This document shows, in pieces, positions 6,906 to 60,447 of a DNA stretch of 64,000 nucleotides; the stretch's first letter is position 1, and every line of letters starts with the position of its first letter. This DNA comes from Panacibacter ginsenosidivorans (GTDB taxonomy: Bacteria > Bacteroidota > Bacteroidia > Chitinophagales > Chitinophagaceae): positions 4,839,501 to 4,903,500 of the forward strand of contig NZ_CP042435.1 in assembly GCF_007971225.1 (NCBI RefSeq). Direction: 5' to 3'. A model generated the notes under the pieces. The model worked only from the letters and a program-made list of their open reading frames with translations. It was not told the origin of the DNA and searched no databases. A program made the position numbers and the translations under genes.

Positions 6906-7802
6906 ATGAAAAACATATCCAGGCCTGTAATTATTATTGGGTCCGGCAGATCGGGTACAACTATTATTTCTGAAATTCTCTTCAGGCATGAGGATCTTGC
7001 ATGGCCTTCTAATTACCAGGAAAAGTTTCCTTCCCGGCCTGGAGTGAATTTACTGCGTAATTTATTTGATAATAAACTATGGCGTTTACAAGGTCAAAAA
7101 CCACAGTTAAATAAAGTATCAAAATTTAATAAAGTTCTTTTCAAACCTGCAGAAGCTTATAAGTTTTGGGAATACCTTACTGGTCCGGCAATTGATTTTT
7201 CGCGTGGCTTTTTAATAAATGAAAGGCCAACTGAAAAAGATGTAAAGCGCATACATAAAGCTTTTGGTAGAATGTTGCATTACCAGTTTAAGAAAAGACT
7301 GGCTTTTAAGATTACAGGACCTGCAAGGATCGGTTATTTGAAAGCTGTTTTTCCGGATGCTATTTTCATCAACATTGTAAGAGAACCTATGGCTACCATT
7401 AATTCATGGCTTAATGTTGATTTCTGGCAGGATAAAGGCAAACATCAATTATGGTGGACAGGCGCTTACACGCCACAGGAAATGGAGTGGGCAGAAAAGA
7501 ATACAGACAAACCGGAATTACTTGCAGCCATGCAATACCGTAAACTGATGGAAATTACAGAAAAGGAAATAGCAATGAATAAAGCCAATTGCCTCACTAT
7601 TCATTATGAAGATTTCGTTGCTGATCCTTCGGCCGTTATCAATAATATTCTTGCATTTGCAGAACTGGATAAATCAACACTTGTAGATACTTACCTGCAG
7701 GGTATAAAGATATATAACCAAAACAAGAACGAAGCACCAGGAAAGCAGGTTCCGTATGCTTCCGAAATGCAACGCATATTACAGGGCCGTTATGCGTTTT
7801 AG
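6906..7802 (+). CDS. Sulfotransferase, family A (first paralogue)
   Basis: This cytosolic PAPS-dependent sulfotransferase probably sulfates a sugar of the exopolysaccharide repeat unit. The 5'-phosphosulfate loop is GSGRSGTT (residues 12-19). The 3'-phosphate site is the INIVREP segment near residue 159, followed by ATINSWL. At 298 residues it is a single-domain enzyme with no signal or membrane helix. It shares its whole architecture, including HEDLAW, DFSRGFLINE, WWTGAY and HYEDFV blocks, with the genes at 12769 and 13989, so the three are paralogues. The acceptor cannot be told from sequence. Confidence 0.85.
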   Translation: MKNISRPVIIIGSGRSGTTIISEILFRHEDLAWPSNYQEKFPSRPGVNLLRNLFDNKLWRLQGQKPQLNKVSKFNKVLFKPAEAYKFWEYLTGPAIDFSRGFLINERPTEKDVKRIHKAFGRMLHYQFKKRLAFKITGPARIGYLKAVFPDAIFINIVREPMATINSWLNVDFWQDKGKHQLWWTGAYTPQEMEWAEKNTDKPELLAAMQYRKLMEITEKEIAMNKANCLTIHYEDFVADPSAVINNILAFAELDKSTLVDTYLQGIKIYNQNKNEAPGKQVPYASEMQRILQGRYAF

Positions 7803-7841
7803 AAAGGTATGGATCAGGCAATAGTGCTTATAGCATCGCCG

Positions 7842-7857
7842 GTTGTGTCACTCACTT
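7842..7857 (-). repeat. Dispersed dyad repeat copy 4 (GTGACAC type)
   Basis: GTTGTGTCACTCACTT is the left member of a diverging pair with copy 5, and this pair joins one copy of each subfamily. The gap 7803-8075 holds only this pair. Confidence 0.8.
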
Positions 7858-7915
7858 CAGGGTTCTGAACTTTGAGAAATTATTGCGATTGTACATGCTT
7901 ATAAAAGATACGGAA

Positions 7916-7935
7916 GTACAAGAGTGCGACGCAAC
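7916..7935 (+). repeat. Dispersed dyad repeat copy 5 (GCGACGC type)
   Basis: GTACAAGAGTGCGACGCAAC is a perfect consensus copy, followed by the family's 3' flank (GGAAGCTCAATAGCAA and an AT-rich end). Confidence 0.85.
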
Positions 7936-8075
7936 GGAAGCTCAATAGCAAACCGGAAGATGGTAACATAAATTTATATCAACTGGATAATTGCCCGTAA
8001 AGGGCAACTTTATTTTTTGTAAAAGTGGCATGTTGAAGATAAAAAGTATTTTCAGAATGGATCAACGATAACCTC

Positions 8076-9644
8076 ATGGCTTTAAGCAAACAAAAGCTGG
8101 TAAAAACCGGAATATGGCAGGTGCTAAACACTGTTGTTGTTTTGGTGTCTCAGATAGGCGCAAACGCAATAATGGCACGCTATGTAACCGATGTGGAATT
8201 TGGTCTTATGGCCATTACCAATGCGTTTGTAAATTTTGCCTGTTTTTTTTCAGAGGCAGGAATGGGAGATGCACTATTGCAAAGAAAAGTTGTAGAGCCA
8301 CAGCATAAAAATGCGGCATTATATTTTAGTGTGCTAGTATCGGTTGTACTATATGTGATATTTTATTTTTGTGCACCACTTATTGCTGACTTCTATGGTA
8401 AACCTGAACTGATAAATATTTTACGCGTACTTGGCTTTAGTTTTATATTACTTTCTATCGGCTCTTCTTCCCTAAACCTGATGCAGAAGAACTTCAACTT
8501 TAAACAGGTTTTCTTTAGTGATAGTCTAAGTCTGTTTGCTTCAAATATATTAGGGGTTGTTTTGGCCATGAAAGGTTATGGCGCATGGTCTGTTGTATGG
8601 TCTATTCTGTTTTATAATGCAGCACGCATGGTGATGGTGTGGATCATTGAACCTATTCCTTTAAAACTTGGTGCAACATTAAAACACTGGAAAGATCTTG
8701 CTGGTTATGGTGCAGGCTTAACCCTGATAAGAATAAATAATTATGTTAGCGGCTTTGGAATAATGCTTGAGATTGGTAAGCTTGTTAGCATCGCATTACT
8801 CGGTGCTTTTGAGCGTTCGTATCGTTACACTAATTTGCCGGTTAGATACATTGGAGATATGCTGCAGAAGATCATGATGCCTTTCATGTCTAAAATGCAG
8901 GATGAAGATGAAAAGTTGTATGTTTTCTTTTATCGTGCACAGTCTTTCTCTAATTCATTGTTAGTACCAATAAGTCTTTTTGGTTTGGTATTCTGCAAAC
9001 CCATAGTATTTATACTGCTGGGTCATAAATGGGAGAATGCTATTATACCCATGCAGATACTTTTTCTTTCGCTTCCATTCCGTATTACAACAAAAGTGGC
9101 CGATGCATTAATGCGTTCCAAACAATTGGTATACCGAAATGCAGGAAGAAAATTTCAGTATGTAGTTATATTATGTGTAGGCATCTATGTAGGATGGCTT
9201 TTTGATAAAAATAGTCTTGTCGGTATTTCCACTGCTGTAACGTTGGCATCTGTATTCAACTATGTCGCCATGCTGCTTACTATAAGAAGAAGAGTTTTTA
9301 CGCAGGGCTGGCAGAAACTTATTATCAGTCCCTTTAAAAATGGACTATTGCTCTCTGTATGTATCATCGCACCTGCATATGGGTTATATTTCCTGCTGAA
9401 TATGTTTGTGCAGGAACAAGTGGTCTCATTCATTATAGTCACCAGTATCGTAGGTGTTATCCTTTTATTTCTTTTCCTAAAAAGACCAAAATGGCTGGGA
9501 GAAGATTTTGCAGATATGCAGAAAGAGATCCTTAAAATGACAAAAGGAAAAGGTGGTGGCAAGAAAAGAAAAATGATGGAAGAAGAATTAAAGATGCAAC
9601 ACGATAACGATATTCCAACAGTAACTGAACCAATAAACGAATAA
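8076..9644 (+). CDS. Polysaccharide flippase (Wzx-like, MOP superfamily)
   Basis: This 522-residue polytopic membrane protein has about 12-14 hydrophobic segments and is predicted to flip lipid-linked repeat units across the inner membrane. The N-terminal amphipathic start VKTGIWQVLNTVVVLVSQIG and the early motif ARYVTDVEFGLMAI are typical of oligosaccharide flippases. The C-terminus is an unusual basic tail rich in Lys, Gly and Met (residues 485-505) that must be cytosolic. The next gene starts 8 bases after the stop, so it is cotranscribed with the two Stf0-like sulfotransferases. Confidence 0.88.
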   Translation: MALSKQKLVKTGIWQVLNTVVVLVSQIGANAIMARYVTDVEFGLMAITNAFVNFACFFSEAGMGDALLQRKVVEPQHKNAALYFSVLVSVVLYVIFYFCAPLIADFYGKPELINILRVLGFSFILLSIGSSSLNLMQKNFNFKQVFFSDSLSLFASNILGVVLAMKGYGAWSVVWSILFYNAARMVMVWIIEPIPLKLGATLKHWKDLAGYGAGLTLIRINNYVSGFGIMLEIGKLVSIALLGAFERSYRYTNLPVRYIGDMLQKIMMPFMSKMQDEDEKLYVFFYRAQSFSNSLLVPISLFGLVFCKPIVFILLGHKWENAIIPMQILFLSLPFRITTKVADALMRSKQLVYRNAGRKFQYVVILCVGIYVGWLFDKNSLVGISTAVTLASVFNYVAMLLTIRRRVFTQGWQKLIISPFKNGLLLSVCIIAPAYGLYFLLNMFVQEQVVSFIIVTSIVGVILLFLFLKRPKWLGEDFADMQKEILKMTKGKGGGKKRKMMEEELKMQHDNDIPTVTEPINE

Positions 9645-9652
9645 ATACCTGT

Positions 9653-10393
9653 ATGACGAAGTTTATTGTTTTTACTACACCAAGAACCGGATCAACTTTA
9701 CTGGTAAAATCTTTAGACAGGCATCCTGAAATCTTTTGTGCAGGGGAAATATTTTTATTGAACGGCACACAGTTTCATGGTGAATGCAGTTTCCCTTTCT
9801 GGAAATTACCCTTGCCCAAAAAAGCCATCTACATCATGAACTTTCCAAATATGTGGATGAATCTTTCGTCATTCCTCAAAAATTTTTTTACACCTGCCAA
9901 TGGAGAGAAAGCAAAAGGTTTTAAGATGATGCATTTTCAAACATTCTATGTTCCCGGAATGATTGAATACATAAAAAAGAACGACATAAAAGTAATACTC
10001 CTGCTACGTGAAAATCTTTTGAAGAACACCTTGTCAGATCTTCGTGCAAGAGATACAGGTGTTTATCATAACAGTGGCAATGTTGCCGAAAAATTACCGA
10101 AGTTCAATGTTGATATCCCTCAGCTCGAAAAAAAGATGGAGGAGATTGCAGGTATTCAGAAAGAGCTTGAGAATGTTACATCATCAATGAATACACTAAA
10201 GATCACTTATGAAGATTTTGAGAACTGGGATGCAACAATAAGCAAGGTGCTTAACTTCATTAATGTTGAGAATATTCAGTTACCACCGGTATCAAAAAAA
10301 TTAAATCCTGATAAGCTGGAAGATATGATCGAGAATTACGATGAAATGGCAGCATGGCTTAAACAAAAAAATTATGCGCATTTCCTGGATTGA
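9653..10393 (+). CDS. Stf0-like sulfotransferase (family B, first copy)
   Basis: This 246-residue predicted PAPS-dependent sulfotransferase differs in type from the genes at 6906, 12769 and 13989. The N-terminal FTTPRTGST (7-15) is the 5'-phosphosulfate loop in the form seen in Stf0-type enzymes, followed by LDRHPEIFCAGEIF. VILLLREN near 117 is the 3'-phosphate strand with its Arg. ITYEDF near 184 is a late conserved block. It lies 8 bases after the flippase gene and 17 bases before a paralogue of near-equal length. Confidence 0.78.
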   Translation: MTKFIVFTTPRTGSTLLVKSLDRHPEIFCAGEIFLLNGTQFHGECSFPFWKLPLPKKAIYIMNFPNMWMNLSSFLKNFFTPANGEKAKGFKMMHFQTFYVPGMIEYIKKNDIKVILLLRENLLKNTLSDLRARDTGVYHNSGNVAEKLPKFNVDIPQLEKKMEEIAGIQKELENVTSSMNTLKITYEDFENWDATISKVLNFINVENIQLPPVSKKLNPDKLEDMIENYDEMAAWLKQKNYAHFLD

Positions 10394-10410
10394 TAATGTG
10401 ATTTAAAACG

Positions 10411-11169
10411 ATGACAAAATTTATCATTTTTACCACACAACGCAGCGGCTCAACTGTTTTAACAAAAACACTTGATGAACACCCACAGGTATTTGCGGCA
10501 GGTGAACTGTTTCATACAAATGAAAAGATACATCATCCCGAATGGCATTTCACGTTCATTAATTATCTTGGTAAGGGTAAAGCCCGTGGTGTGCTAATGA
10601 AAATGAATAAAGCGCTAAATAAACTTAGCATCAAAAAAAGGATCACAAAACATCTCAATGCTTTTTTTAACGCAAAAGACAAAAATGAAAAAGCCCGGGG
10701 ATTTAAGTTAATGCTTTCGCAGGTTAAGACAACACCTTATATATGGGAGCAGGTAAAAAAACAAGATGCAAAAATTATCGTGCTCCTGCGAAAGAATATT
10801 CTTGAAACAGCGTTATCAAAATATCGTGGCAGAACAACGAAGCTTTACCATTCAGATGATAATGTTGGGAAACAAAAGATAAAGATTCCAATAGCGGAAT
10901 TTACTTCATGGCTCGCTATGCTGGATGGGTTTAATAAACGGTTATTGGAATTGACAGAAGGTCTTGACAGGATAGTTATTTATTACGAAGATTTTGGCAA
11001 CTGGCAACAAATACTCGATCAGACTTTTACTTTTCTAGAAGTTGATAAAATACAACTTGCGCCGGTTTTGCAGAAAGTTGGAGCAAATGATTGGCGTGAA
11101 GATGTAGAGAATTATAAAGAAGTGGAACAGGCGGTACAGCAAACAAATTATGCGGCTTGGTTGAATTAG
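10411..11169 (+). CDS. Stf0-like sulfotransferase (family B, second copy)
   Basis: This 252-residue protein is a paralogue of the preceding gene. It shares the start MTKFI(I/V)FTT, the loop FTTQRSGST (7-15), the LDEHPQVFAAGELF block, the IIVLLRKN 3'-phosphate strand and IYYEDFGNW. The two genes lie in tandem, which suggests a local duplication. The middle third has diverged and gained a basic segment (about 50-95), which may reflect a different sulfation position. Confidence 0.78.
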   Translation: MTKFIIFTTQRSGSTVLTKTLDEHPQVFAAGELFHTNEKIHHPEWHFTFINYLGKGKARGVLMKMNKALNKLSIKKRITKHLNAFFNAKDKNEKARGFKLMLSQVKTTPYIWEQVKKQDAKIIVLLRKNILETALSKYRGRTTKLYHSDDNVGKQKIKIPIAEFTSWLAMLDGFNKRLLELTEGLDRIVIYYEDFGNWQQILDQTFTFLEVDKIQLAPVLQKVGANDWREDVENYKEVEQAVQQTNYAAWLN

Positions 11170-11218
11170 GTAATGTTTATTTTTGTGTGCCGGTCAGAAG
11201 TAAAAATATTTGACTTTC

Positions 11219-11238
11219 GTTGCGTCGCACACTTGTAC
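11219..11238 (-). repeat. Dispersed dyad repeat copy 6 (GCGACGC type)
   Basis: GTTGCGTCGCACACTTGTAC lies between the second Stf0-like gene and the polymerase gene, within a run of co-directional genes. Confidence 0.85.
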
Positions 11239-11295
11239 TGAATAATATTTTTCAGCAAATAGTATGGCTGAAATAAATATGGTAAAATTTTTATT

Positions 11296-12753
11296 ATGGC
11301 AATGAATTTAAAGTTAAAAGATGCGTGGTATTGGATTGCCAATTTTGCGATCCTTGGTACATGTTCCTTGTCTATGTACCTGGATGATCCATTGCCTTTA
11401 TTGGCTGTCGCAGTCCCTTTGATTATGTTGGACCGCGCCTATGTAGTACCGGTATTGCTTTTTATCGCCTGTATAGAAGGCTCTTTTGCTTCTGAAGATT
11501 CCTCATCAAAAGCAGAGACTTACGCCATTGCGTTTATCATGCCATTCTTTCTATATGATTATATCAAACATAATAAAACAAAAATACCTTACGCACTTTC
11601 GTTGTTATATATAGTATTTGGTTTTTTCATCATCTGGGGTATGATCATCTGGTCAACACATCCTGAAATAAAGAAATATATTACATCACTATTGTTTACC
11701 AGAGTGGGCGTTTTCATTTACATTAAAATGTTTATGAAGGTGGTCAAGCTGGTCTTCTTCTTTTTATATCTTAAGGTGCTTATTAATAATGATAAAGATC
11801 TTCTTTACCGCGCCTTAAACCTTATGAAAGATATGGCGCCCTATCTTATAGGATGTGTGCTTTTAGATATGCTGCTGTTTGGCGTTGAAACGGAGAAGTT
11901 TGATACACTGCATTTCGGAGAAGCACACCATGGTGATTTTTCTGCAAATATGAATGCGCTCGGTGCGTTCCTTTATATCGGTATATTCGAATCCAAAACA
12001 AGTATGTTCAAGCGGTTTGTGCATGTATGTGGTTTGGGGATGTTGCTATTTGTGATCATGAATCTTGCCTCCCGTAATGGGTTGCTAAGCTTCATTATAC
12101 TTGGTGGGCTTGGTGGCATGCTTGCCTTATGGAATATGCGATGGGGGGCAAAAGTTATTATAGTAACAATAACCATTGCTTTAGCAGGAATTTGTGCCTA
12201 CTTGTTTAAAGATTCTCCAACAGTTGAGCGGTTTATTTACCAGACGGAAGAAGAGGACGGTGGAGACCGTTGGCTATATTGGAGAGGTGGTCTTATGGCC
12301 CTACAAAAAGATCCGGTGTTTGGGTTAGGTGGAGATGAAACTTCTGCGTTATTTGCTGTTGGTACTTATTCTCCGGAGGTAGAAGACCATGTAATGCATA
12401 ATACGTTTCTTGAGTTTGCAGTAGAATATGGCATAGTTGGTGAAATTTTCTTCCTCATTTTTGTGGGCACTATTTTATACCATTCTTACAAGAACTATAT
12501 GTTTGCAGCCAAATACAATGAGATCATTCTTGGTGTTCCGAGTATATCTTACTTCATATCAATTTTTGCAGGTTTATTTGTAAGCCGGGTCTGGGAGTCA
12601 ACCCTCTGGTATAACATGACCATCGTTTTTGCTATCTATATCATTTTCCGAAAACCAGTTGAAGACGCATTGAAAAAAAGAAGGAGATATATATTGCATG
12701 GGCTTGGGGATCCTATGCTTGATCCTTCACTGGCACTGCATCCCGCTAAATAA
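11296..12753 (+). CDS. O-antigen polymerase/ligase-like membrane protein (Wzy candidate)
   Basis: This 485-residue protein with about 10-12 membrane helices is predicted to polymerise repeat units on the periplasmic side. The long loop before the last helices carries FGLGGDETSALF and then HNTFLEFAVEYGIVGEIFF (near residues 374-392), which matches the Wzy_C pattern of a glycine-rich turn, an HN pair and ExGxxG. A Wzx candidate and Wza/Wzc genes nearby make a polymerase more likely than a ligase. The C-terminus is a short cytosolic basic tail. The next sulfotransferase gene starts 15 bases downstream. Confidence 0.82.
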   Translation: MAMNLKLKDAWYWIANFAILGTCSLSMYLDDPLPLLAVAVPLIMLDRAYVVPVLLFIACIEGSFASEDSSSKAETYAIAFIMPFFLYDYIKHNKTKIPYALSLLYIVFGFFIIWGMIIWSTHPEIKKYITSLLFTRVGVFIYIKMFMKVVKLVFFFLYLKVLINNDKDLLYRALNLMKDMAPYLIGCVLLDMLLFGVETEKFDTLHFGEAHHGDFSANMNALGAFLYIGIFESKTSMFKRFVHVCGLGMLLFVIMNLASRNGLLSFIILGGLGGMLALWNMRWGAKVIIVTITIALAGICAYLFKDSPTVERFIYQTEEEDGGDRWLYWRGGLMALQKDPVFGLGGDETSALFAVGTYSPEVEDHVMHNTFLEFAVEYGIVGEIFFLIFVGTILYHSYKNYMFAAKYNEIILGVPSISYFISIFAGLFVSRVWESTLWYNMTIVFAIYIIFRKPVEDALKKRRRYILHGLGDPMLDPSLALHPAK

Positions 12754-12768
12754 AACACAACCCTGCTT

Positions 12769-13686
12769 ATGAGTAATTTCCTATCGAAAAACGAATATTT
12801 ACTTCAAAAACCAATTATAATCTTTGGTACCGGCCGTTCCGGTACCACTGTTATTTCTGATATTATTCTTCATCATGAAGAACTTGCCTGGCATAATAAC
12901 TGGCAGGAGCTTCTTCCAAAATCAGCAACCATAAATTATTTGCGTCGTTTATTTGATAATGGCTTATGGCATATAACAGGCATGAACACACAGAACAATA
13001 AATCATTGATCAACCAGGTTTTATTCAGACCAATTGAACGTTATGATTTTTGGGAAGTTGTTACCGGACCACGTATAGATTTTTCAAGAGGTTTTTTGCT
13101 GAATGAAAGAGCTACTGACGAAGAGAAACAACAAATGCGCTTGCACTTTGCTAAAATGGTAAAGTATCAAAACCGAAAAAGACTTGCATTTAAACTTACC
13201 GGTCCTGCACGCATGGAATATTTGCTCAGCGTTTTTCCCGATGCACAGTTTGTACAAATAACAAGAGAGCCTGTTGCTACGATCCGTTCCTGGCTTGAGA
13301 TTCACTGGAGCAGTCAGATGACAGAGCAATTGTGGTGGAATGGAGCTTATACGGAAGAAGAAAAAGAAAAATCAAAAGAATACGCAAAAGATCCCGCATT
13401 GTTTGTCGCGTTTCAGTATAAAAAATTGATGGAAACGACAGCTTACGAGATCAATAAACTGAAGCCAGATGTTTATACAACGCGTTATGAAGATTTTGTA
13501 AAAGATGCAAAAGGATTTATTGCAAACATGATGCATCATCTGGGATTGCCTCATTCAAAACAGGTTGATAAATTCATGGAAAAAATTTCTGTACAGAACA
13601 GGAATAATCGTGCGGCAAAATCTGCAAAGACCGAAATAAGTGAAGAAACAAAAAAGAAGATTCTTGAAATAGTAGGAAATATATAA
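12769..13686 (+). CDS. Sulfotransferase, family A (second paralogue)
   Basis: This 305-residue enzyme is a paralogue of the genes at 6906 and 13989. The 5'-phosphosulfate loop is GTGRSGTT (20-27) and the 3'-phosphate segment is QITREPVATIRSWL near 163. The shared blocks RIDFSRGFLLNE, FKLTGPAR and TRYEDFVKDAKGF are all present. The gene is probably cotranscribed with the polymerase upstream and the small membrane protein 3 bases downstream. Confidence 0.85.
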   Translation: MSNFLSKNEYLLQKPIIIFGTGRSGTTVISDIILHHEELAWHNNWQELLPKSATINYLRRLFDNGLWHITGMNTQNNKSLINQVLFRPIERYDFWEVVTGPRIDFSRGFLLNERATDEEKQQMRLHFAKMVKYQNRKRLAFKLTGPARMEYLLSVFPDAQFVQITREPVATIRSWLEIHWSSQMTEQLWWNGAYTEEEKEKSKEYAKDPALFVAFQYKKLMETTAYEINKLKPDVYTTRYEDFVKDAKGFIANMMHHLGLPHSKQVDKFMEKISVQNRNNRAAKSAKTEISEETKKKILEIVGNI

Positions 13687-13689
13687 GCA

Positions 13690-13890
13690 ATGAATTGGCG
13701 CACTGTTGTTGGTATTATTCTGATTCTTTCTTCAATAGAAGAAATGTTGAGAGTATTTTTTGATTACCGAGCAGGTAAGTCAGAAGCTAGTCCATATGAT
13801 GTTATGCTTGGATTTATTATTGTTGCATTTATTGGTTTTCTATTAATGCGAAAGGGAATGCAGAAAAGTGTAAATAAACTAAAAAAATAA
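13690..13890 (+). CDS. Small two-helix membrane protein of unknown function
   Basis: This 66-residue protein has two predicted membrane segments (about 5-25 and 38-55) joined by an acidic-basic loop with RAGKSEASPYD, and a basic C-terminus. It begins 3 bases after the sulfotransferase stop, which implies translational coupling. No family is recognised; it may be an accessory membrane protein of the polysaccharide machinery. Confidence 0.6.
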   Translation: MNWRTVVGIILILSSIEEMLRVFFDYRAGKSEASPYDVMLGFIIVAFIGFLLMRKGMQKSVNKLKK

Positions 13891-13917
13891 AAGTAAGTGT
13901 TGCCATAGAACAGAACG

Positions 13918-13936
13918 CACAAGAGTGCGACGCAAC
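13918..13936 (+). repeat. Dispersed dyad repeat copy 7 (GCGACGC type)
   Basis: CACAAGAGTGCGACGCAAC carries the extended 5' flank ATAGAACAGAACG seen in several copies. With copy 8 it brackets one sulfotransferase gene in inverted orientation. Confidence 0.85.
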
Positions 13937-13988
13937 GAAAGGTTAATTAATAAATAAAAGTCCGGTAAATAAAAAATTTTCACTGCTT

Positions 13989-14933
13989 ATGAATGATAAG
14001 CCAATAAAATATGAAGAGCTGTTAGAAAAACCGATACTGATTTTTGGTAGCGGGCGTAGCGGCACAACTATTTTATCTGAGATCATTTTTCAGCACGAAG
14101 ACCTCGCATGGCACAGTAATTACCAGGAAATTTTAACGAAGTCAACATGGATAAATTATTTCAGAAGATTCTGGAGTAATAATATGTACAGTCTTGTGAA
14201 GTATTGGAAATTTGTTGGTGTTAGCAAAAATACAAGACAAAAATTTGGATCATTTTTAAAGCTTGCTATATTTAATCCCATCGAGCGATACGCTTTCTGG
14301 GAAAGCATTACAGGGCATCGCATAGATTTTTCAAGAGGATTTTTATTGAATGAAAAAGCAACACCGGAAGAGATTCATCACATACGTTCTTTTCTTGCAA
14401 AGCAGGTAAAATACCAGGGCAAAAAAAGATTGATCATGAAGTTTACTGGTCCTGCACGTTTGGAATATCTTACCAGTATTTTCCCTGATCTGATTGTGGT
14501 GAGTATTGCACGCGAACCAATCGCCACGGTGCGTTCATGGCTTGAAGTTGGTTTCTGGCAACGCATGGGTATTGATAAACTTTGGTGGATCGGTGCATAC
14601 TCAAAGGAAGAAGAAGCAGAAGCTGAAAAACTAAAAGGTAATGCGCCGCTGATCACAGCGTTTCAATATCGCAAACTGATGGAGACAACACAATACGAAA
14701 TTGAAAAGCTTGGATTGAATGTGTTGCAAACACGCTATGAAGATTTTGTAAAAGATCCGAAAGCGTTTATCAAAAACGTGATGGACTTTATGCAACTGAC
14801 GCAATCAAAACATGTAGATAATTACATGAATGAAATGGTCGTAAGTAATCGCAATGCAAGAACATCAAATAAAACAACATTCAGCGATGAAACGAAGCAA
14901 CGCATTATGGAGATCGTTGGCGAGTATGCGTAG
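13989..14933 (+). CDS. Sulfotransferase, family A (third paralogue)
   Basis: This 314-residue enzyme has the phosphosulfate loop GSGRSGTT (20-27) and the 3'-phosphate segment SIAREPIATVRSWL near 171. It is closest in layout to the gene at 12769, with the same N-terminal pre-sequence ending in KPI(L/I)IFG and the same C-terminal ending KQRIMEIVGEY. The gene stands alone between two inverted dispersed repeats, so it may have its own promoter. Confidence 0.85.
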   Translation: MNDKPIKYEELLEKPILIFGSGRSGTTILSEIIFQHEDLAWHSNYQEILTKSTWINYFRRFWSNNMYSLVKYWKFVGVSKNTRQKFGSFLKLAIFNPIERYAFWESITGHRIDFSRGFLLNEKATPEEIHHIRSFLAKQVKYQGKKRLIMKFTGPARLEYLTSIFPDLIVVSIAREPIATVRSWLEVGFWQRMGIDKLWWIGAYSKEEEAEAEKLKGNAPLITAFQYRKLMETTQYEIEKLGLNVLQTRYEDFVKDPKAFIKNVMDFMQLTQSKHVDNYMNEMVVSNRNARTSNKTTFSDETKQRIMEIVGEYA

Positions 14934-52649: not shown

Positions 52650-55600
52650 TTATCTAAGCAACGTTACATTTCCTTTGTACGTGTATGGAACACCATTCTC
52701 ACAAATAACATCAACAGTATAAATATACACACCAACATCTGCGGGTCTTCCGTTTATTAATCCATTCCATCCGTAAGCAGCGCTGTTTGGCGAAAAGTTG
52801 GTACGCTCAAAAACTAATCTTCCCCAGCGGTTAAAAATCCTGAAAGATTTTACAGATGCAATACCCGAAGCTCTTACCATAAATACCGCATTGGATGCAT
52901 TGCCATTTGGTGTAAATGCATTGGGCATAAACACCTGCGAACTCTGGCAGAAAACTTTTACGCAAATAGTATCACGGCCAACACATCCGTAAACATTTGT
53001 CGCATTTAAATAATAACAACCTGCATTTTTTACAGCAGCAACAGGAGCAGAACAAATAGCATCATTGCAATTGATATTCTGCGACGGTGTCCATGCATAT
53101 GATTTCATGGGCAACACATTCGGATCATTTGCATTGGTAATAGTTGTTGCTAAATTCAGCAGGTATCCGGTTGGTACAGTAAGTGTATCCTGTGCAAATT
53201 TTACAATAGGATAGTTCCCGATCTTTATAAGTGTATCTGTTGTGGAACTGCACCCTGTTTGCGCCGACGTTACAGTTATTGAATACACACCGCCATCCTG
53301 CACCTGTACATTATTGATAGCAGCATAAGCATTGTTTACGGGAAAGCCTGTGCCCGGCCCATTCCAAACAAAACTTAATATGCTATTGCCGGGAATAGAA
53401 CTTGTTGCCTGCAAACTCAGATTATCTCCCACACATAAAGGACTTCTTGTAGTTACCTGGGGCTTGGTTGGGGATTGTTTTATAGTAACAATAAAATTGG
53501 TTGCAGGTGAAATACAATTATTCTGTATAGCATAGACAATATATGTTCCTGCATAAGATACAGGCGCAGATGGAAAGCTTATAACAGTATTTCTTGTAGT
53601 ATCTGCAAGCGGGCCAAATGCAGGTCCTACCCATACATAATCTATCGGGTATGTTTCTGAACTTGTTGGTGATGATGCGGATAAACTCAACATATTTTCA
53701 CTGCATAAAGGGCCGTTATAACCGGCAATTGGTTGTGCAGGCGGGTCAGGATCTTTCAACACAAATACATCAGGTATTTTTTGAGAAAGGCAATTATTGC
53801 TTTCGACATATATGTTTGAGTAAGTTCCTGCAACAAGCGGTATAGTTATTTTTCCGTTTGCATCACTTGTTGCAACGATTGCATAAGCTGTTTGAAATTT
53901 TGTGTAGTGAACAATAAATGAAATGTTCGGCATTGCGTTATTATTAAGATCAAGTACATTCAACACAATAGAGCCTGAAGGAATACCACATGCTGTAGGA
54001 TTCGTATAGCTTGAACTAATGATCTTCGCTGTTGCATTTACAACTGCTGTAACTTTTGATTTCCCGCTTTCGCATCCATACGAGTTCGACTGGCTTGCAT
54101 AAAATGTGAATGTTGCAGGTGTATTTGTATTAATGAGAGGTGCTGCATTCAAAGGATTTAAATTTCCATCATACCAGTTAACAGTATTTCCCGGTACGGC
54201 ATTTACCGTTAATGTTTCCGGTGGTGTATGCATGCAATATTTAAAAGTATCTGTTACCAATGCAGCAGGTATTGGATTAATTATTAGCGTAAGATCTGTA
54301 GGCGCACCATCGCAGGGATTTTGTGTAGGATTTGTTGGTACAACATGTATGATGATAGACTGACTTACTGAACTTGTATTTGTAAACAACAATGATATGC
54401 TTGCATTTGGATCAGAGGTTGTTCCTGAAGTTACACCTGTTACACCTGCAGGTAGTGCACTTGTAACAGACCATGTATAAAGAGTATTGGCAACTGTTGA
54501 TAAAGGTTTAAAGACAGCCGTTCCGCCGGAACAAATTGATTGTACCAAAGATGAAAATGTTATAACAGGACTATCATTAATTGTAACAGTTGTAGTTGTT
54601 ACAAAACCGGGACACGGTGCAGATGGTTGTATGGTATAGGTTACGGTATAAGTACCCGGTAAACTTAATGATGGATTTATTGCACCTGTTGTTGAATTAA
54701 CAGATAATCCTTGTGCTGAACTATATGTTCCACCAGTTGTTCCGGAAAATGTAACAGCTTGTGGAATTGTTACACCACGACAATAAGAAGAAGCAGGATA
54801 TTGTATAGCAGCAGTTGGTGTGCTATTGATGGTTATTTGTGTTGTGGTTACAAATTCAGCACAACCTCCTGCAGCAGCAATAGTATAAGATATAGTATAT
54901 GTTCCCGCAACTGCACCTGACGGATCAATAGTACCTGTTACAGTATTGATCGGTAATCCCGTTGATGGTGAAACAGTATAAGTACCGCCTTTGTTACCGG
55001 TAAGCATTACATCAACTTTAGGGTTAGGTGTATTGGCTGAATTAATAACATTACAGAGGTTTGTAGCAGCATATGAAATAGTTGCAAAAGGCGCTTTTGT
55101 GATAGTAACTTTTGTTGTTGTTGTAAACCCGGGGCATGGTGCAGATGCAGCTATGCTGTAAGTTACAATATAGTCTCCTGCAGTACTTGTTGAAGCTGTT
55201 ATAACACCTGTAGCAGCATCTATAGTAAGACCTGTTGTTGATGAAAAACTACCACCTTGTGTTCCGTTAAGCTGTACACTTATTGCATTGGTTGAAGTAC
55301 ATATTGGTGGATAGCTTATCGTTGCTTCAGGTGTTCCGTTCACTGTAACAGTTGCAGTTGTTACAAAATCAGTACAACCACCTGAACCTGGAATTGTATA
55401 AGAGATAGTATATGTTCCTGCCGCAGCACCCGATGGATCTATTCTTCCATTAATTGTATTAATTGGTAAGCCTGTTGCAGGCTGTATAGAATAAGTGCCT
55501 CCGGTATTGCCTGTAAGTACTACATCAATTGGCGGATTTGGTGTTGATGCAGTGTTGGTAACATTACAAAGATTGGAAACATTATAAGTTATAGTTGCAC

Positions 55601-58031
55601 TCGGCGCTTTTGTAACAGTAACATTTGTTGTTGTTGTAAATCCTGGGCAGGGAGATGAAGGAGCAATTGTATATGTAACAACATAATTTCCGGGTATGCT
55701 TGTTGAAGCTGTAATGGTGCCTGTTGCAGCATTGATCGTTAATCCTGCTGTAGATGTATAAGAGCCACCTGATGAACCGGTAAGCTGAACTTTTACATCC
55801 CCGTTTGAAGTACAGATAGAAGGATAAGTTATGGAAGCATTTGGTGTACTGTTTACTGTAACTGTAGTGGAAGTAACAAAATCGGAACAACCTCCTGTTC
55901 CTGTTATCCTATAATAAATAGTGTATGTTCCTGCAGTAGCTCCCGAAGGGTCGATGGTGCCTGTTGATGCATTAACAGGTAAACCTGGTGATGGAGAAAT
56001 AGTATAAGTTCCACCTGTAGATCCAGTAAGGTTTACATTAACGGGCGGGTTTGGTGTTTGTGCAGTATTGTTTACATTACAAAGATTCGTAACAGGATAA
56101 CTTATCGTTGCAGATGGTGCTGCTTTTGTTGTTACAGTTATTAATGCTCTTGGTCCTTCACCACAATTAGTTGACTGGCTTACATAATAATCTGAATTGC
56201 CAACAGTAGTTGTAGAAGGTGTTGGAGCTACTGTACTTCCTGTTCCTCCTGTAGCTGTTGTGTACCAACGTAATCCTGTACCACTTGCAGTTAATGGTAC
56301 AGCAGGTTGGTTCTGACAATAAATTATAGGTGATACAACAACCGGTGCTCCCGGTAATGATTCAACATTTACAGTTATCACTGCTCTTTTACTTTCGCAA
56401 TCACTTACTGTTTGACTTACATAAAAATTAAAAGTGCCTGTTGCAGCAGTTGATGGAGTAGGGGCAGTTGATGAACCTGTACCCCCGATAGCAGTAGTGT
56501 ACCACAACAATCCTGTACCTGTTGCTGTAAGTGGAGTTGCTGCCTGGCCCTTACAAAGATTCACAGGTGTGCTTACTCCGGGCTCTGCTGGTATGGCATG
56601 AACAACAACGGTAACAGGTACTCTCGGACTCTCACATTTACCTGCCAGGGTCTGGCTAACATAGTAGGTAGTAGTGCCCGGTATTGCAGTTGAAGGTGTC
56701 GGTGCTACTGAAGTACCTGTACCTCCTGTAACAGATGTGTACCATAACAATCCCGTACCTGTTGCTGTTAATTGCACAGCCGTTTCATCCTGGCAATAGC
56801 TAACTGGTGTTGCTGAAACAACCGGGCTTTGCGAGGTTTCTTTTACCACTACTGTTTTGGTTTTGATATCCCCGCCACAGGTTGCGTTGGAACTTGTTAA
56901 TGTAACAGTGTAAGTACCAGCATCTGTATAATTATGACATGGCGGTGTTGTTGCAGTAGAAGTGGAACCATCTCCAAAATCCCATGTATAATTACTTATG
57001 GTGTTACAATTATTACCACTGCTTCCATCCGTTGTTTTATTGGTAAAACAAACTGCGTCAGTAACGCATACAGGCGTATCTATAGCAAAATCAGCAATTG
57101 GTTTATCCCTTATTATGATCTGGTTTACTGTATAGGTAGTAGTATAACAGGCGTTCGTGGGTTGTAATATAGCTGTATAATCTGTTTTCGGACAAGATGA
57201 TGTTTTATAAGTATGTGTTACCTGCTGCGCTGTATCCGCATTATTTAGCGGATGTTGTAAAGTAACAGGAGAAGTACCATCTCCAAAATCCAGCTGGTAA
57301 GTTGTACCCGGAGAATTATTGGCCCAGTTACCTATCACAAAAGTAACATCTGCCGGTGCACATAAATTTACTGTTGAAGCTGTAGTGGTAATGCTTGCCA
57401 GGGGGTTGGTACCATTATAAAAATTATATGTTGCAGTTTTGCTGCAACCATTCGATGTAGTAACTGTGAATTTTATTTTAAAATAGCCCTGGTTGGTATA
57501 GGTATGCGTGGTTTGTGCATTTGCAGCCCAGTCCGTTTGTGTAAAATGTGCTGAACCATCACCCCAATCTATGTCATAGCTTGCACCTGAACCTGCCTGT
57601 GTTGTACTATTGCCTACTACTAAAGTATAGGTTGTTGTTAAACCATTGCAATAAGTAAAAGGGGCGTCTGGATTATTGATATCAGCCAAGCCGGGAACAG
57701 GTAAGGGATTAATGGTAAGTTTTTCAGTTGTAGTATCAGCCCCATTACCTGTTGTAACAATTACAGTTCCTGTTGTTGCTTTAACAGACACATAAGCTGT
57801 AATAGATGTAGCGCTGTTAACGGTAAATTTTGATGCCGTATCAGTTCCGAGCTTTACACTCTTTATGCCTGTAAAGTTCGTACCTGTTATAGTCACAGCA
57901 TCACCCTGGCAAACCGTCGTTGGAGAAAATGATATTATTGCCGGTGCTTGTGCAAACAAGACAACGTTGTTTAATAAATACTGGAAAACAATACAGCTAA
58001 TTATTTTAAAGGTTTTAAAGCAGTTAGTCAT
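52650..58031 (-). CDS. Giant type IX secreted surface protein with PKD and Ig-like repeats
   Basis: This 1,793-residue cargo protein is predicted to be displayed on the cell surface, where such proteins often act in adhesion or gliding. A signal peptide (about 1-28) is followed by an IPT/TIG-like domain (30-110). PKD domains follow with DIDWGDGSAHF, YQLDFGDGTSP and YTWDFGDGSTST. Next come about four short repeats with the pattern LTATGTGLLWYTTAxGGTGS. Then three rounds of a two-part Ig-like repeat alternate LTGxxGGTY...IDPSGAxAGTYTI with GLTIxAATGxITASTS. The last 90 residues are the type B sorting domain (MPNAFTPNG, FNRWGRLVFE, DVGVYIYTV). Confidence 0.92.
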   Translation of the reverse strand: MTNCFKTFKIISCIVFQYLLNNVVLFAQAPAIISFSPTTVCQGDAVTITGTNFTGIKSVKLGTDTASKFTVNSATSITAYVSVKATTGTVIVTTGNGADTTTEKLTINPLPVPGLADINNPDAPFTYCNGLTTTYTLVVGNSTTQAGSGASYDIDWGDGSAHFTQTDWAANAQTTHTYTNQGYFKIKFTVTTSNGCSKTATYNFYNGTNPLASITTTASTVNLCAPADVTFVIGNWANNSPGTTYQLDFGDGTSPVTLQHPLNNADTAQQVTHTYKTSSCPKTDYTAILQPTNACYTTTYTVNQIIIRDKPIADFAIDTPVCVTDAVCFTNKTTDGSSGNNCNTISNYTWDFGDGSTSTATTPPCHNYTDAGTYTVTLTSSNATCGGDIKTKTVVVKETSQSPVVSATPVSYCQDETAVQLTATGTGLLWYTSVTGGTGTSVAPTPSTAIPGTTTYYVSQTLAGKCESPRVPVTVVVHAIPAEPGVSTPVNLCKGQAATPLTATGTGLLWYTTAIGGTGSSTAPTPSTAATGTFNFYVSQTVSDCESKRAVITVNVESLPGAPVVVSPIIYCQNQPAVPLTASGTGLRWYTTATGGTGSTVAPTPSTTTVGNSDYYVSQSTNCGEGPRALITVTTKAAPSATISYPVTNLCNVNNTAQTPNPPVNVNLTGSTGGTYTISPSPGLPVNASTGTIDPSGATAGTYTIYYRITGTGGCSDFVTSTTVTVNSTPNASITYPSICTSNGDVKVQLTGSSGGSYTSTAGLTINAATGTITASTSIPGNYVVTYTIAPSSPCPGFTTTTNVTVTKAPSATITYNVSNLCNVTNTASTPNPPIDVVLTGNTGGTYSIQPATGLPINTINGRIDPSGAAAGTYTISYTIPGSGGCTDFVTTATVTVNGTPEATISYPPICTSTNAISVQLNGTQGGSFSSTTGLTIDAATGVITASTSTAGDYIVTYSIAASAPCPGFTTTTKVTITKAPFATISYAATNLCNVINSANTPNPKVDVMLTGNKGGTYTVSPSTGLPINTVTGTIDPSGAVAGTYTISYTIAAAGGCAEFVTTTQITINSTPTAAIQYPASSYCRGVTIPQAVTFSGTTGGTYSSAQGLSVNSTTGAINPSLSLPGTYTVTYTIQPSAPCPGFVTTTTVTINDSPVITFSSLVQSICSGGTAVFKPLSTVANTLYTWSVTSALPAGVTGVTSGTTSDPNASISLLFTNTSSVSQSIIIHVVPTNPTQNPCDGAPTDLTLIINPIPAALVTDTFKYCMHTPPETLTVNAVPGNTVNWYDGNLNPLNAAPLINTNTPATFTFYASQSNSYGCESGKSKVTAVVNATAKIISSSYTNPTACGIPSGSIVLNVLDLNNNAMPNISFIVHYTKFQTAYAIVATSDANGKITIPLVAGTYSNIYVESNNCLSQKIPDVFVLKDPDPPAQPIAGYNGPLCSENMLSLSASSPTSSETYPIDYVWVGPAFGPLADTTRNTVISFPSAPVSYAGTYIVYAIQNNCISPATNFIVTIKQSPTKPQVTTRSPLCVGDNLSLQATSSIPGNSILSFVWNGPGTGFPVNNAYAAINNVQVQDGGVYSITVTSAQTGCSSTTDTLIKIGNYPIVKFAQDTLTVPTGYLLNLATTITNANDPNVLPMKSYAWTPSQNINCNDAICSAPVAAVKNAGCYYLNATNVYGCVGRDTICVKVFCQSSQVFMPNAFTPNGNASNAVFMVRASGIASVKSFRIFNRWGRLVFERTNFSPNSAAYGWNGLINGRPADVGVYIYTVDVICENGVPYTYKGNVTLLR
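54740..56130 (-). repeat. Intragenic repeats of the giant surface protein
   Basis: The two-part Ig-like module recurs with a period of about 500 bp (165 residues), as seen from the CTS and CNV anchor segments near 55.3 and 55.8 kb. Such in-frame repeats can expand or contract by recombination. Confidence 0.6.
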
Positions 58032-58250
58032 GAAGTTGCAGTACGGTTTTAAGGATTTTTTTAAAGATATTATTTATCTGATGTTCACTGGCTTAAATTT
58101 CCGCGATTGTATAAATGTTTTTATAGATTAACTCTTTGCAGGGTCGGTATGTCAATTGCAAAGTAAAAATTTTTTCGCATCAGGAGATCACTTTTGTATG
58201 AAGGTATTAAATAAAGCAGTTGTATGGCAAGTTGGTACTGTGTTATTCAG

Positions 58251-58274
58251 GCTGTAAGATCAAAATCTTACAGC
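58251..58274 (+). terminator. Hairpin overlapping the stop codon of the 58268 gene
   Basis: GCTGTAAGAT and ATCTTACAGC are perfect 10-bp arms around CAAA. The T tract follows only on the plus strand, although the gene that ends here is on the minus strand, so termination in the gene's direction would rely on the stem alone. Confidence 0.45.
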
Positions 58275-59437
58275 TTTTTGTTTTTTTCTACCAGGTATTC
58301 AAGCCACAAGATCTTGTTGTAAGCAGGGCAATAGAAATAATAGGTTATATAACTCCAATGTAAAAAGATTTGTTTGAATGGTGTAGGATAGGAGAATGCC
58401 GCTCTTGCCTGAAAGAAAATGTATTGCTGCTGGTTACTTTTTTCAAATTCTGTAATGCTCTGTAAATCCAATGATGGTGCAGGTTTTCCGAGCCTTAGTA
58501 ATGCAGTTCGTAAAATTATCTGATCCATAACATTCGTGCTCTTGTCAAGTAATGCATGAATATCTTCTACCAGCTGTGGTTTGTAAATTTCAAGTTCAGG
58601 AATATGAAATGCTCCCATCAATCTTGTAAGATGGTATAATAAGATCGAAGATTTTACATAGTATGGTGAAAGATAAACAGGCGCTTTCATGTGCTCTCTA
58701 TTCTTCACCATTTGTGTGATGAGATCAAGTGTAGCGCTGTCTTGTACAGTAAAAGTTAAGTGTTTGTCATACATAAAATACAGGATATTGCATTGCACCG
58801 CAAAATCAAAATCAGGAGTCATACGTGTGCCCAGATAAGTACTATATGCTGGAATGTCTTTATACTTTCTATAAGTTGAAATAATTTTACGCCCGTTACT
58901 TTTATTAGCGACATCTATTAATCTCTTTTTTACATTGGTGTTTGCGTTGTCATCATTGTTATCTGTCATTAATATCATTACGGTATCATCGGCATCTTCT
59001 CCTTGTCCGAATACACTCTTTAAATATTTAAAGTAATAAGTGTGCGGCATAATAGGTGCATGCGTTGGCCAGAAATTATAGAATGGCTCTCCAAACTGAT
59101 CTTTGTAATATGGGTACGTTGAAGTTGCTTTTGAAATAATATTTTGAGCAACCTTTTTATTTTCGCCGATTAAGTAAGGCAGCATATTACGCAATGCAAA
59201 AGCGCCAATAGCCGTGAAGAATATATTATTGTCCGGCTGATAGTTATGTGGTGCACCACCGCATTCACGAAAAGAGGGAAACATGCCTGCATAAAATTCA
59301 CCATCTGTTGCAACCTGGGCAGCAGCAATATCTTTCACTAATGCGTTAATAAGCAATGAATCACTTTGGTGTGCATTCGCTGAAATACAAAATGAAAGTA
59401 GTGAAACTAAAGTCAGCCATGTTTTCTTAAATTGCAT
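58268..59437 (-). CDS. Exported alpha/alpha-barrel protein with a class II terpene cyclase-like DxDDT motif
   Basis: This 389-residue protein has a signal peptide (about 1-22, ending SANAHQ). The mature part appears all-helical. GEDADDTVMIL carries D148-A-D150-D151-T152, which matches the DxDDT acid motif of squalene-hopene and copalyl-type cyclases. TPDFDFAVQCNILYFMY near 208-224 recalls the repeat turns of alpha/alpha toroid proteins. The size is small for a full class II cyclase and an exported form is unexpected. It starts 20 bases after the class I isoprenoid-like gene, so the two form an operon. It could instead be a toroid glycan-binding protein. Confidence 0.5.
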   Translation of the reverse strand: MQFKKTWLTLVSLLSFCISANAHQSDSLLINALVKDIAAAQVATDGEFYAGMFPSFRECGGAPHNYQPDNNIFFTAIGAFALRNMLPYLIGENKKVAQNIISKATSTYPYYKDQFGEPFYNFWPTHAPIMPHTYYFKYLKSVFGQGEDADDTVMILMTDNNDDNANTNVKKRLIDVANKSNGRKIISTYRKYKDIPAYSTYLGTRMTPDFDFAVQCNILYFMYDKHLTFTVQDSATLDLITQMVKNREHMKAPVYLSPYYVKSSILLYHLTRLMGAFHIPELEIYKPQLVEDIHALLDKSTNVMDQIILRTALLRLGKPAPSLDLQSITEFEKSNQQQYIFFQARAAFSYPTPFKQIFLHWSYITYYFYCPAYNKILWLEYLVEKNKKL

Positions 59438-59457
59438 ATTTGCACATTTTCAAATTT

Positions 59458-60447
59458 TCACATTAATCCCGGCAGTTTCCATATATAATAAAACCATTTA
59501 AGAAAATTAGATGGCTTTTCCATATCAACAATCATATCTTTTCTTTCAAGCTGCCACCAGTTTATTTCTCCTTTTTTCTTTTCAAAAGATATGAACTGGT
59601 CAAGTGCAACCGCGCTTCTTGCGTTAATTGTGTTCATTATGATGCAAAAAATTTCTTTGTTCTTTTTTGCATAAGGAAGCGCCATTATTTTTTGATTTTG
59701 TAATTTGATTCTTTCAATAAATTTTTGTTTAAGTTCAATATAATTATCGCAAGTATTTATCAAAGTATAAATATTGTCGCGTACATCTTTGTAAAGGTCA
59801 AAGATATCATTGCCAAGCTGGTAAAGACTCCCAATAAGAAATAATACTTCCTGCATCTCTTTATCAGCCGCATCATCCAGGCATTGATGATAAATTATAA
59901 CAGAGACAGCTCCTTTTGTGTATGTGATTTGTTCAATTTCTTTTTTTGTAATTGCAGTATTCTTTTGCTTTACGGTTTCTGCCTGTATATCTAAAACAGC
60001 TTTTGAAGCTTTTATATAAGCTTCTTTATGAGGAACATTATGTAGTAAAAAGCTTTGTATCTCTTTTGCTACCTGTGCTGAAAAAGTAACTGCTTTAAAA
60101 GATTCCGGGTCAAATGTTATCTGTTCTATGCTTTTATGATCAAGTTTATCTATATCAAAAAGATCATCGCCTACAGGTGTTAAAATGCCGAATAATGTTG
60201 CTCTTTTCCTTTCAGCTTCTGTAAGCTTTTTTCCATACAATCTTTTATAACTGCTGCATAAGAATGATGTAATAAATAAGCCATAATAATCAGTTATCTT
60301 TTTCTTTTGTTCAACCGAAAACTGCCCGTCATATTTTTTTTCGAGATCATGCAGATAAGGTAAAAGGAAGTTTTTATTGTATTTTTTTTGTATGCTTATC
60401 TCCTTATAAACGCTTATAGATGCCTTAATATACCTGCTTACATTCAT
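59458..60447 (-). CDS. Class I isoprenoid synthase-like protein
   Basis: This 329-residue, all-helical cytosolic protein shows GDDLFDID at 93-100, a DDxxD first aspartate motif, and YQLGNDIFD at 209-217, which resembles the FQxxDDxxD second motif of prenyl synthases with the first Asp replaced by Asn, followed by KDVRDN. The 120-residue spacing is normal for class I enzymes. It should bind a polyprenyl diphosphate through Mg2+ and act as a prenyl transferase or terpene synthase. It is the first gene of a two-gene operon with the DxDDT protein. No known subfamily is recognised. Confidence 0.65.
   Translation of the reverse strand: MNVSRYIKASISVYKEISIQKKYNKNFLLPYLHDLEKKYDGQFSVEQKKKITDYYGLFITSFLCSSYKRLYGKKLTEAERKRATLFGILTPVGDDLFDIDKLDHKSIEQITFDPESFKAVTFSAQVAKEIQSFLLHNVPHKEAYIKASKAVLDIQAETVKQKNTAITKKEIEQITYTKGAVSVIIYHQCLDDAADKEMQEVLFLIGSLYQLGNDIFDLYKDVRDNIYTLINTCDNYIELKQKFIERIKLQNQKIMALPYAKKNKEIFCIIMNTINARSAVALDQFISFEKKKGEINWWQLERKDMIVDMEKPSNFLKWFYYIWKLPGLM

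Follow-up and report, generated by a model that had tools for sequence, protein, structure and literature searches.

Two neighbouring genes of Panacibacter ginsenosidivorans (Bacteroidota, Chitinophagaceae) raise the question of whether this bacterium harbors a terpenoid pathway of its own kind, and on which side of the inner membrane the rings would be formed. They lie on the minus strand of the window, by which we mean the whole stretch of 64,000 nucleotides analysed here (assembly GCF_007971225.1, contig NZ_CP042435.1, positions 4,839,501 to 4,903,500). Gene A (59458..60447) encodes 329 amino acids and has no signal peptide that we could see; gene B (58268..59437) encodes 389 amino acids, a putative signal peptide included. 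The open reading frame (ORF) coordinates place 20 bases (59438..59457) between the stop of A and the start of B, in agreement with an original prediction, made from the letters of the sequence, which had described a pair of genes with class I and class II terpene enzyme motifs 20 bases apart on one strand. That description was largely right in kind: A and B represent two new, linked terpene-type enzyme families. The main surprise of the locus is a class II cyclase with a putative export signal, which the original prediction overlooked. That A and B catalyse two reactions of a single terpenoid pathway divided by the inner membrane, with activities, order, substrate, product and location all predicted, is in our view an even bet.

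The motifs DDLFD and NDIFD, for which A had been likened to prenyl synthases, are indeed present, 119 residues apart instead of the 120 first given, and are conserved across an alignment of 36 rows (A1), the window's protein included and the others being 24-74% identical to it. Most homolog rows of A1 and of the B alignment A2 lack the last C-terminal residue, which leaves the motifs unaffected. The first metal-binding-type Asp motif, DDxxD (DDLFD, residues 94-98, 60154..60168, minus strand), keeps D94 and D98 in 36/36 rows and D95 in 33/36, and the second, NDxxDxxKD (NDIFDLYKD, residues 213-221, 59785..59811, minus strand), is complete in every row. Positions D94, D98, Q155, Q161, K178, Q210, N213, D214, D217, K220, D221, R302 and D308 are invariant, a conservation that argues against the chance occurrence of short motifs.

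Structure prediction, suggested from the outset as a check, returned an isoprenoid synthase fold for A and a class II cyclase toroid for B. The AlphaFold2 model of A (pLDDT 95.5) was aligned by VIA-align 2 with MoeN5 at Z 16.7 (244 residues aligned, 3.5 Å), and it matches the class IB structures 6loo at Z 16.6 (274 aligned) and 5yo8 at Z 16.4 (279 aligned). Within 1-2 Z units of the top come prenyl diphosphate synthases as well as class I terpene synthases, rank 50 still scores Z 15.1, and 895 of 1000 chains reach Z>=8, on a scale on which unrelated helical models may score about 13-14. The model has the class I isoprenoid-synthase fold, and the near-tied scores name no subfamily.

The likeness to prenyl synthases stood as far as the fold and the first metal motif are concerned, but did not extend to the signatures GKRxRP and RR after the first motif, which we take to mark the isopentenyl diphosphate (IPP) site: each is found in 0/36 rows of A. 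The RR signature is present in all 16 polyprenyl synthase controls from relatives; these were selected by GKRxRP, so that GKRxRP itself is not independently controlled. Because the IPP-site elongation signatures are absent, the sequences point to a one-substrate ionising enzyme rather than to IPP-using chain elongation, and A is probably not a prenyl synthase. Its second motif reads NDxxD where trans-prenyl diphosphate synthases have DDxxD. This motif is spaced like the NSE triad and like the second motif of class IB enzymes, with different letters; compared with ND(I,L)xSxxxE, the pattern of the NSE/DTE triad, N213 and K220 fit, and both Ser and Glu are replaced by Asp in 36/36 rows.

Family searches give A no clear place among these groups. 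Pfam and NCBIfam gave no usable family for the window's A and B, the sole Pfam row (DUF7041, E 0.42) being noise. Across the 36 rows, polyprenyl_synt (PF00348) matches ten at E<=0.1 (best 4.3e-4), the window's A not among them; SQS_PSY matches two weakly (best E 0.024), Terpene_synth_C one (E 0.053), and NCBIfam gives scattered noise. The 18 rows of a broadened profile (A4) include none with a match to PF00348 or any other Pfam family at E<=0.01. We propose that A constitutes an undescribed class I family.

Gene B was said to carry DADDT, the acid motif of class II cyclases, and it does (residues 148-152, 58982..58996, minus strand): D148, D150 and D151 of this DxDD protonation motif, as well as Y260 (58658..58660, minus strand), are invariant in the 30 rows, window included, of the narrow profile A2. 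A broader set of 18 rows (A3) keeps D148, D150, D211, Y260, Y268, R272 and F341, positions being transferred by hand. The model of B (pLDDT 92.3) has five drimenol synthases as its best structures, at Z 28.7-29.7 (best 302 aligned, 3.4 Å), followed by the merosterolic acid synthase MstE (Z 23.0), squalene-hopene cyclases (up to 22.7), 6ij1, whose title is uninformative (22.6), and, as the best toroids whose title names another enzyme, cellobiose 2-epimerases (18.7). Profile A3, run against 177,635 PDB sequences, found the drimenol synthases 9mhs (E 4.3e-7) and AsDMS 9m7d (E 7.6e-6) and AstC, presumably a HAD-type cyclase (E 3.5e-4 and 0.0012); these four are the only matches below E 0.01, and the sole further row, MOCS3 at E 1.7, is noise. 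The narrower profile A2 returned nothing at E<=10 from the PDB sequences, searches of the same sequences with the single proteins A and B gave nothing decisive, and Pfam on the 30 rows of B yielded scattered noise, with no SQHop_cyclase in the rows or in the window's protein.

The A3 profile alignment places DxDD of B at DLDTT of drimenol synthase and pairs Y260 with the final Tyr of RYY. According to the AsDMS structure paper, RYY comprises residues 425-427, D331, D333 and Y427 are catalytic, and the mutants D331A, D331N, D333N and Y427F are inactive (PMC12365925). Residue numbers were carried over from AsDMS to B by hand, with one and the same offset of 15 for RYY and for Y373/R378/R380. Two arginines that bind the diphosphate in AsDMS, R378 and R380, correspond to P/T207 and D209 of B; a one-residue gap adjoins these positions, and B likely lacks counterparts of both arginines. 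B has no HAD phosphatase domain, its model aligning to AsDMS only from residue 170 on (best row), and it is a single-domain protein, unlike the two-domain beta-gamma squalene-hopene cyclase. The assignment of the downstream gene as a class II cyclase is thus borne out by the predicted toroid and the drimenol-synthase matches: as modelled, B is a class II terpene cyclase beta domain, homologous to the cyclase domain of drimenol synthase and with a predicted cyclase activity. Some relatives of B outside Chitinophagaceae have DxDCT instead of DxDDT (L128:8993-10060, L130:9042-10109, L137:9365-10402). Tandem copies of B occur at G121:C92:3191-5562 and G237:C76:6635-9000, where the second copy contains one in-frame TAG; these may be pseudogenes.

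The putative signal peptide of B covers residues 1-22 (59372..59437, minus strand), its end placed by eye in the hydrophobic N-terminal stretch. A hydrophobic N-terminus was found in 27 of the 30 Chitinophagaceae rows of B by a simple hydropathy rule with a cut-off of 2.0. One of these passes, L074, starts late and matched internally; extending the frame upstream reveals the hydrophobic stretch in L074 and in the misses L071 and L078, and the remaining miss, L073, reached 1.97. None of nine B proteins outside Chitinophagaceae passes (highest 1.95), and among the A rows three of 36 do. B in Chitinophagaceae would accordingly carry a putative Sec-type signal peptide, from which we infer its final location. 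In the B tree a branch with support 100 divides the Chitinophagaceae rows (36) from the other eight, and under a midpoint root export may have been gained in the Chitinophagaceae line or lost elsewhere. A Q-rule for signal peptides, taken from PMC5837995 and PMC10653852, matches 18 of 43 rows of B, or 15 once the misplaced matches of the window and L098, and L067 (the same as L088), are removed; the count also includes several B rows with too late a start, and other genes that appear twice. No such Q is present in the signal peptide of the window's B.

A conserved co-occurrence of the pair, the other check suggested for the locus, was found. We took genome family f1 as Chitinophagaceae, its named contigs belonging to Parafilimonas, Ilyomonas, Segetibacter and metagenome-assembled genomes of Chitinophagaceae. 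Among its 244 genomes, 81 carry A, 56 carry B and 47 carry both, against 18.6 expected (Fisher p 1.9e-19); counted by genus (101), 25 have both, 15 A only, two B only and 59 neither (p 2.9e-11), the tests ignoring relatedness. Of the 47 genomes that carry both, 22 have A and B next to each other, 18 times co-directional with A first and four times convergent, while in seven they stand apart on the same contig and in 18 on different contigs. B adjoins A on 14 of 16 contigs with A; L014 has no B beside it and L020 ends inside A. At the end of the latter contig (L020:8001-8641) the sequence of A can be read from either strand, probably through a fault of assembly. In a phylum sample of 395 genomes, A was detected in 11 (three weak), B in 15 (two weak) and both in seven, of which four belong to lineage f13 and have the genes apart.

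In the B tree, the adjacent rows form three groups, one of 17 rows, one of the four convergent rows and L083 alone, and a single origin of the adjacency followed by losses is possible. In genome G025, B lies within the main paired clade (98), and A sits on a long branch of a distant clade (100), together with the second of the two A genes of G056. Because its B belongs to the main paired clade and its A to the distant one, A seems to have been replaced in G025 by a distant homolog, the neighbourhood being retained. At L081:8645-11879, G056 itself has two tandem distant A genes, then one B. Residues Q343 and R345 are present together in 20/20 rows of the main paired B clade and in 0/18 unpaired rows, a number that includes four repeats of the same genes; they may reflect a substrate of its own for this clade, or, since the four convergent pairs and the pair of G067 lack them, may be a clade signature only. 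In G067, the stop codon of a gene for a UbiA prenyltransferase abuts the start of A (L083:7754-10850), likely forming a UbiA-A-B operon, and this prenyltransferase is the sole isoprenoid gene that Pfam recognised among 20 selected neighbours. Neighbouring genes were also considered as a clue to function, pruA (named by eye) often found beside A and an acyl-CoA dehydrogenase beside B paralogs, and were taken as inherited order.

The reading that we favor places the two proteins on either side of the inner membrane. A, soluble and cytosolic, would bind Mg2+ through DDxxD and NDxxDxxKD and ionise an ordinary prenyl diphosphate, such as farnesyl diphosphate (FPP), geranylgeranyl diphosphate (GGPP) or a longer one, with release of the diphosphate. 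The product, a terpene or terpene alcohol of linear or monocyclic structure, would be neutral and soluble in the membrane. On the periplasmic side, D150 of B, the middle Asp of its motif, helped by Y260, would protonate the terminal isoprene of this compound, which B would then fold into rings. The order with A first is drawn from the presence of diphosphate-enzyme motifs and the absence of a signal on A, and from the signal and the probably missing arginines of B. The suggestion of a new isoprenoid pathway fares well as regards two linked terpene-type families, but the unity of the pathway and its product are matters that we infer. More tentatively, and with somewhat less confidence than an even bet would express, the neutral terpene that a cytosolic A of a new family passes to an exported B may become an envelope terpenoid, perhaps a substitute for hopanoids, given that this genome yielded no squalene-hopene cyclase; the non-exported B proteins would then be of the stand-alone relative type behind HAD-fused drimenol synthases.

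Several observations weigh against a split pathway. A is found without detectable B in 34 of 81 genomes, and B without detectable A in 9 of 56; because of these unpaired genomes, and with adjacency in only 22 of 47, neither gene strictly requires the other. In three f10 genomes a non-exported B was found and A was not detected. B is not exported in f13 either, and A has degenerated there in places, G249 having lost DDxxD and G258 carrying Glu in place of D98. The neglect of relatedness by the Fisher tests counts here too, as does the nature of the export call, a prediction from the N-terminal sequence. As to A, Foldseek found no match to its model at E<0.001, the best being dehydrosqualene synthase at E 5e-3; a search of PDB sequences with profile A1 gave a best E of 0.063 and no significant solved isoprenoid synthase, the same search with the broader A4 ranked a growth hormone first (E 0.028), and a comparison of A1 with 16 polyprenyl synthases by hhalign reached a probability of 0.3%, too low to establish sequence homology to prenyl synthases. 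Support for A from sequence is thin, and its class assignment draws on the predicted fold and motifs together with the weak polyprenyl_synt matches.

The B-only genomes of the family and of f10 in the phylum sample are what could be expected if B acted independently of A, cyclising, outside the inner membrane, the end of a common polyprenyl lipid (undecaprenyl phosphate or the tail of menaquinone, for example), with the product of A being separate. Polyprenyl lipids are prenyl compounds that reach the periplasmic side, and the second B of the window's genome, beside an acyl-CoA dehydrogenase, has no adjoining A. The strong co-occurrence, the repeated adjacency and the partner swap in G025 run counter to such independence, as do Q343/R345, specific to the main paired clade though maybe its signature, and we consider it unlikely. 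Slightly less probable still is that A joins prenyl units, by chain elongation or by head-to-head condensation in the manner of squalene synthase, and that B cyclises the resulting long hydrocarbon as squalene-hopene cyclase does. Prenyl diphosphate, dehydrosqualene and class IB synthases are found among the fold neighbours of A with similar scores, and the weak matches to polyprenyl_synt (10/36 rows) and SQS_PSY (2/36) go in the same direction; the lack of GKRxRP (0/36) and of RR (0/36 against 16/16 controls) speaks against elongation, though not against head-to-head joining.

Class II before class I is the usual order in diterpene pathways, and by analogy with labdane-type biosynthesis B could act before A, making a cyclic diphosphate by protonation that A then ionises. 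AsDMS, according to its structure paper, uses FPP with the diphosphate still attached (PMC12365925). Such an order appears improbable, however, with a signal peptide on B and none on A, since this would require a soluble diphosphate to pass through the membrane two times, and the positions of R378 and R380 of AsDMS are taken in B by P/T207 and D209 next to the one-residue gap. The least probable of all, to which we give very little credit, is a non-catalytic or non-terpene alpha/alpha toroid, for example an exported sugar-processing enzyme. Toroid glycosidases of Bacteroidota are commonly exported, and cellobiose 2-epimerases reach Z 18.7 with the model of B; opposed to this are the five drimenol synthases at Z 28.7-29.7, the four profile matches below E 0.01, all of them terpene cyclases with catalytic residues aligned, and DxDD in 30/30 rows. 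Our preference remains with the two-step pathway in which A precedes an exported B.

The surroundings of the pair agree with the earlier statement that no carotenoid or hopanoid gene lies nearby. No ORF of the window is related at E<=1e-3 to the CrtB-, CrtI-, IDI- or prenyl-synthase-like proteins of the genome, names that were given by eye except where Pfam matched. A carotenoid-type cluster is situated outside the window, at 2.86 Mb of the genome. One SQS_PSY gene of the genome is clustered with CrtI-like genes and an isopentenyl isomerase (the latter two by eye), and because of these neighbours the cluster probably consists of carotenoid genes. No squalene-hopene cyclase was detected in the genome by PF13243. 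Matches to PF13243 in 11 of 118 Bacteroidota genomes, tried as squalene-hopene cyclase controls, were dropped as having no DxDD-type motif in frames >300 aa. Two polyprenyl synthases in the genome can provide substrates. The second B of this genome (G000:C1:637186-638334, also L079:10181-11335) is 33% identical to the first and has a signal-peptide-like N-terminus; the gene cluster next to it, with the neighbour that reads as an acyl-CoA dehydrogenase, was found again in five loci. Plasmid records contain no relative of B at E<=1e-3.

At the end of B, a terminator-like inverted repeat of 12 pairs with a T-rich tail (58249..58276, plus strand) was identified by consensus match only; three such sites were found, against a mean of 1.6 in shuffles. 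A sulfatase gene recognised by Pfam lies upstream of the pair, divergent, at 60785. Downstream of B on the same strand (52650-58031) is encoded a repetitive, secreted-looking protein of 1793 aa, PKD-like by eye. Further away (6906-14930), three related proteins with a G-x-GRSGTT-type start look sulfotransferase-like by eye, in a possible surface-polysaccharide region.

To our knowledge, terpene cyclases are cytosolic enzymes or membrane enzymes facing the cytosol. Among the matches listed in a search of open-licence PMC literature, no title or abstract concerned the A or B families or an exported terpene cyclase. If export of B is real, terpene cyclisation can be sited in the cell envelope and such a cyclase needs a neutral, membrane-soluble substrate. 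The presence of both genes in 47 of 244 family genomes would then point to an unnoticed envelope lipid.

Comparison with known systems shows what is shared and what is particular to this pair. Labdane-type pathways likewise associate one class II and one class I gene; there the genes are encoded together, both enzymes work in one compartment and the class II enzyme acts first, whereas here a putative signal peptide on one partner separates the two. Canonical diterpene synthases are reportedly present in Chitinophagaceae as well (PMC12723471), from which the window's A is set apart by the lack of a match to any terpene synthase family of Pfam and by NDxxDxxKD in place of the NSE triad. SqhC of Bacillus is an SHC-type (squalene-hopene cyclase) protein, while B is single-domain and has a putative signal peptide. 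YtpB, a class IB synthase, and SqhC make up the Bacillus sesquarterpene pathway and follow the same logic, a class I and then a class II enzyme (PMC7839719). They differ from A and B in belonging to other protein families and in the membrane that is proposed here to lie between the steps. The class IB structures 5yo8 and 6loo are similar to A in fold, but A has neither DYLDNLxD, the motif of BalTS, nor the residues that make up DY(F,L,W)IDxxED, as these motifs are given in the same source (PMC7839719).

For B, MstE offers the precedent of a stand-alone single beta domain, as described in PMC9128629; with 12% identity and Z 23.0 it is more distant from B than AsDMS is. A stand-alone enzyme made of a terpene cyclase beta domain (TCbeta) was proposed, in the AsDMS structure paper, as one parent of the HAD-TCbeta fusion (PMC12365925). 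The B family would represent stand-alone beta-domain relatives of drimenol synthases, and its proteins make that proposal testable. Drimenol synthases of the HAD-TCbeta type (AsDMS of Aquimarina spongiae, 9m7d/9mhs) have the same cyclase beta domain as B, with the Asp and Tyr residues aligned; they combine a HAD phosphatase domain with DxDTT, whereas B, without HAD, displays DxDD, a putative signal peptide in Chitinophagaceae and, often, a class I partner.

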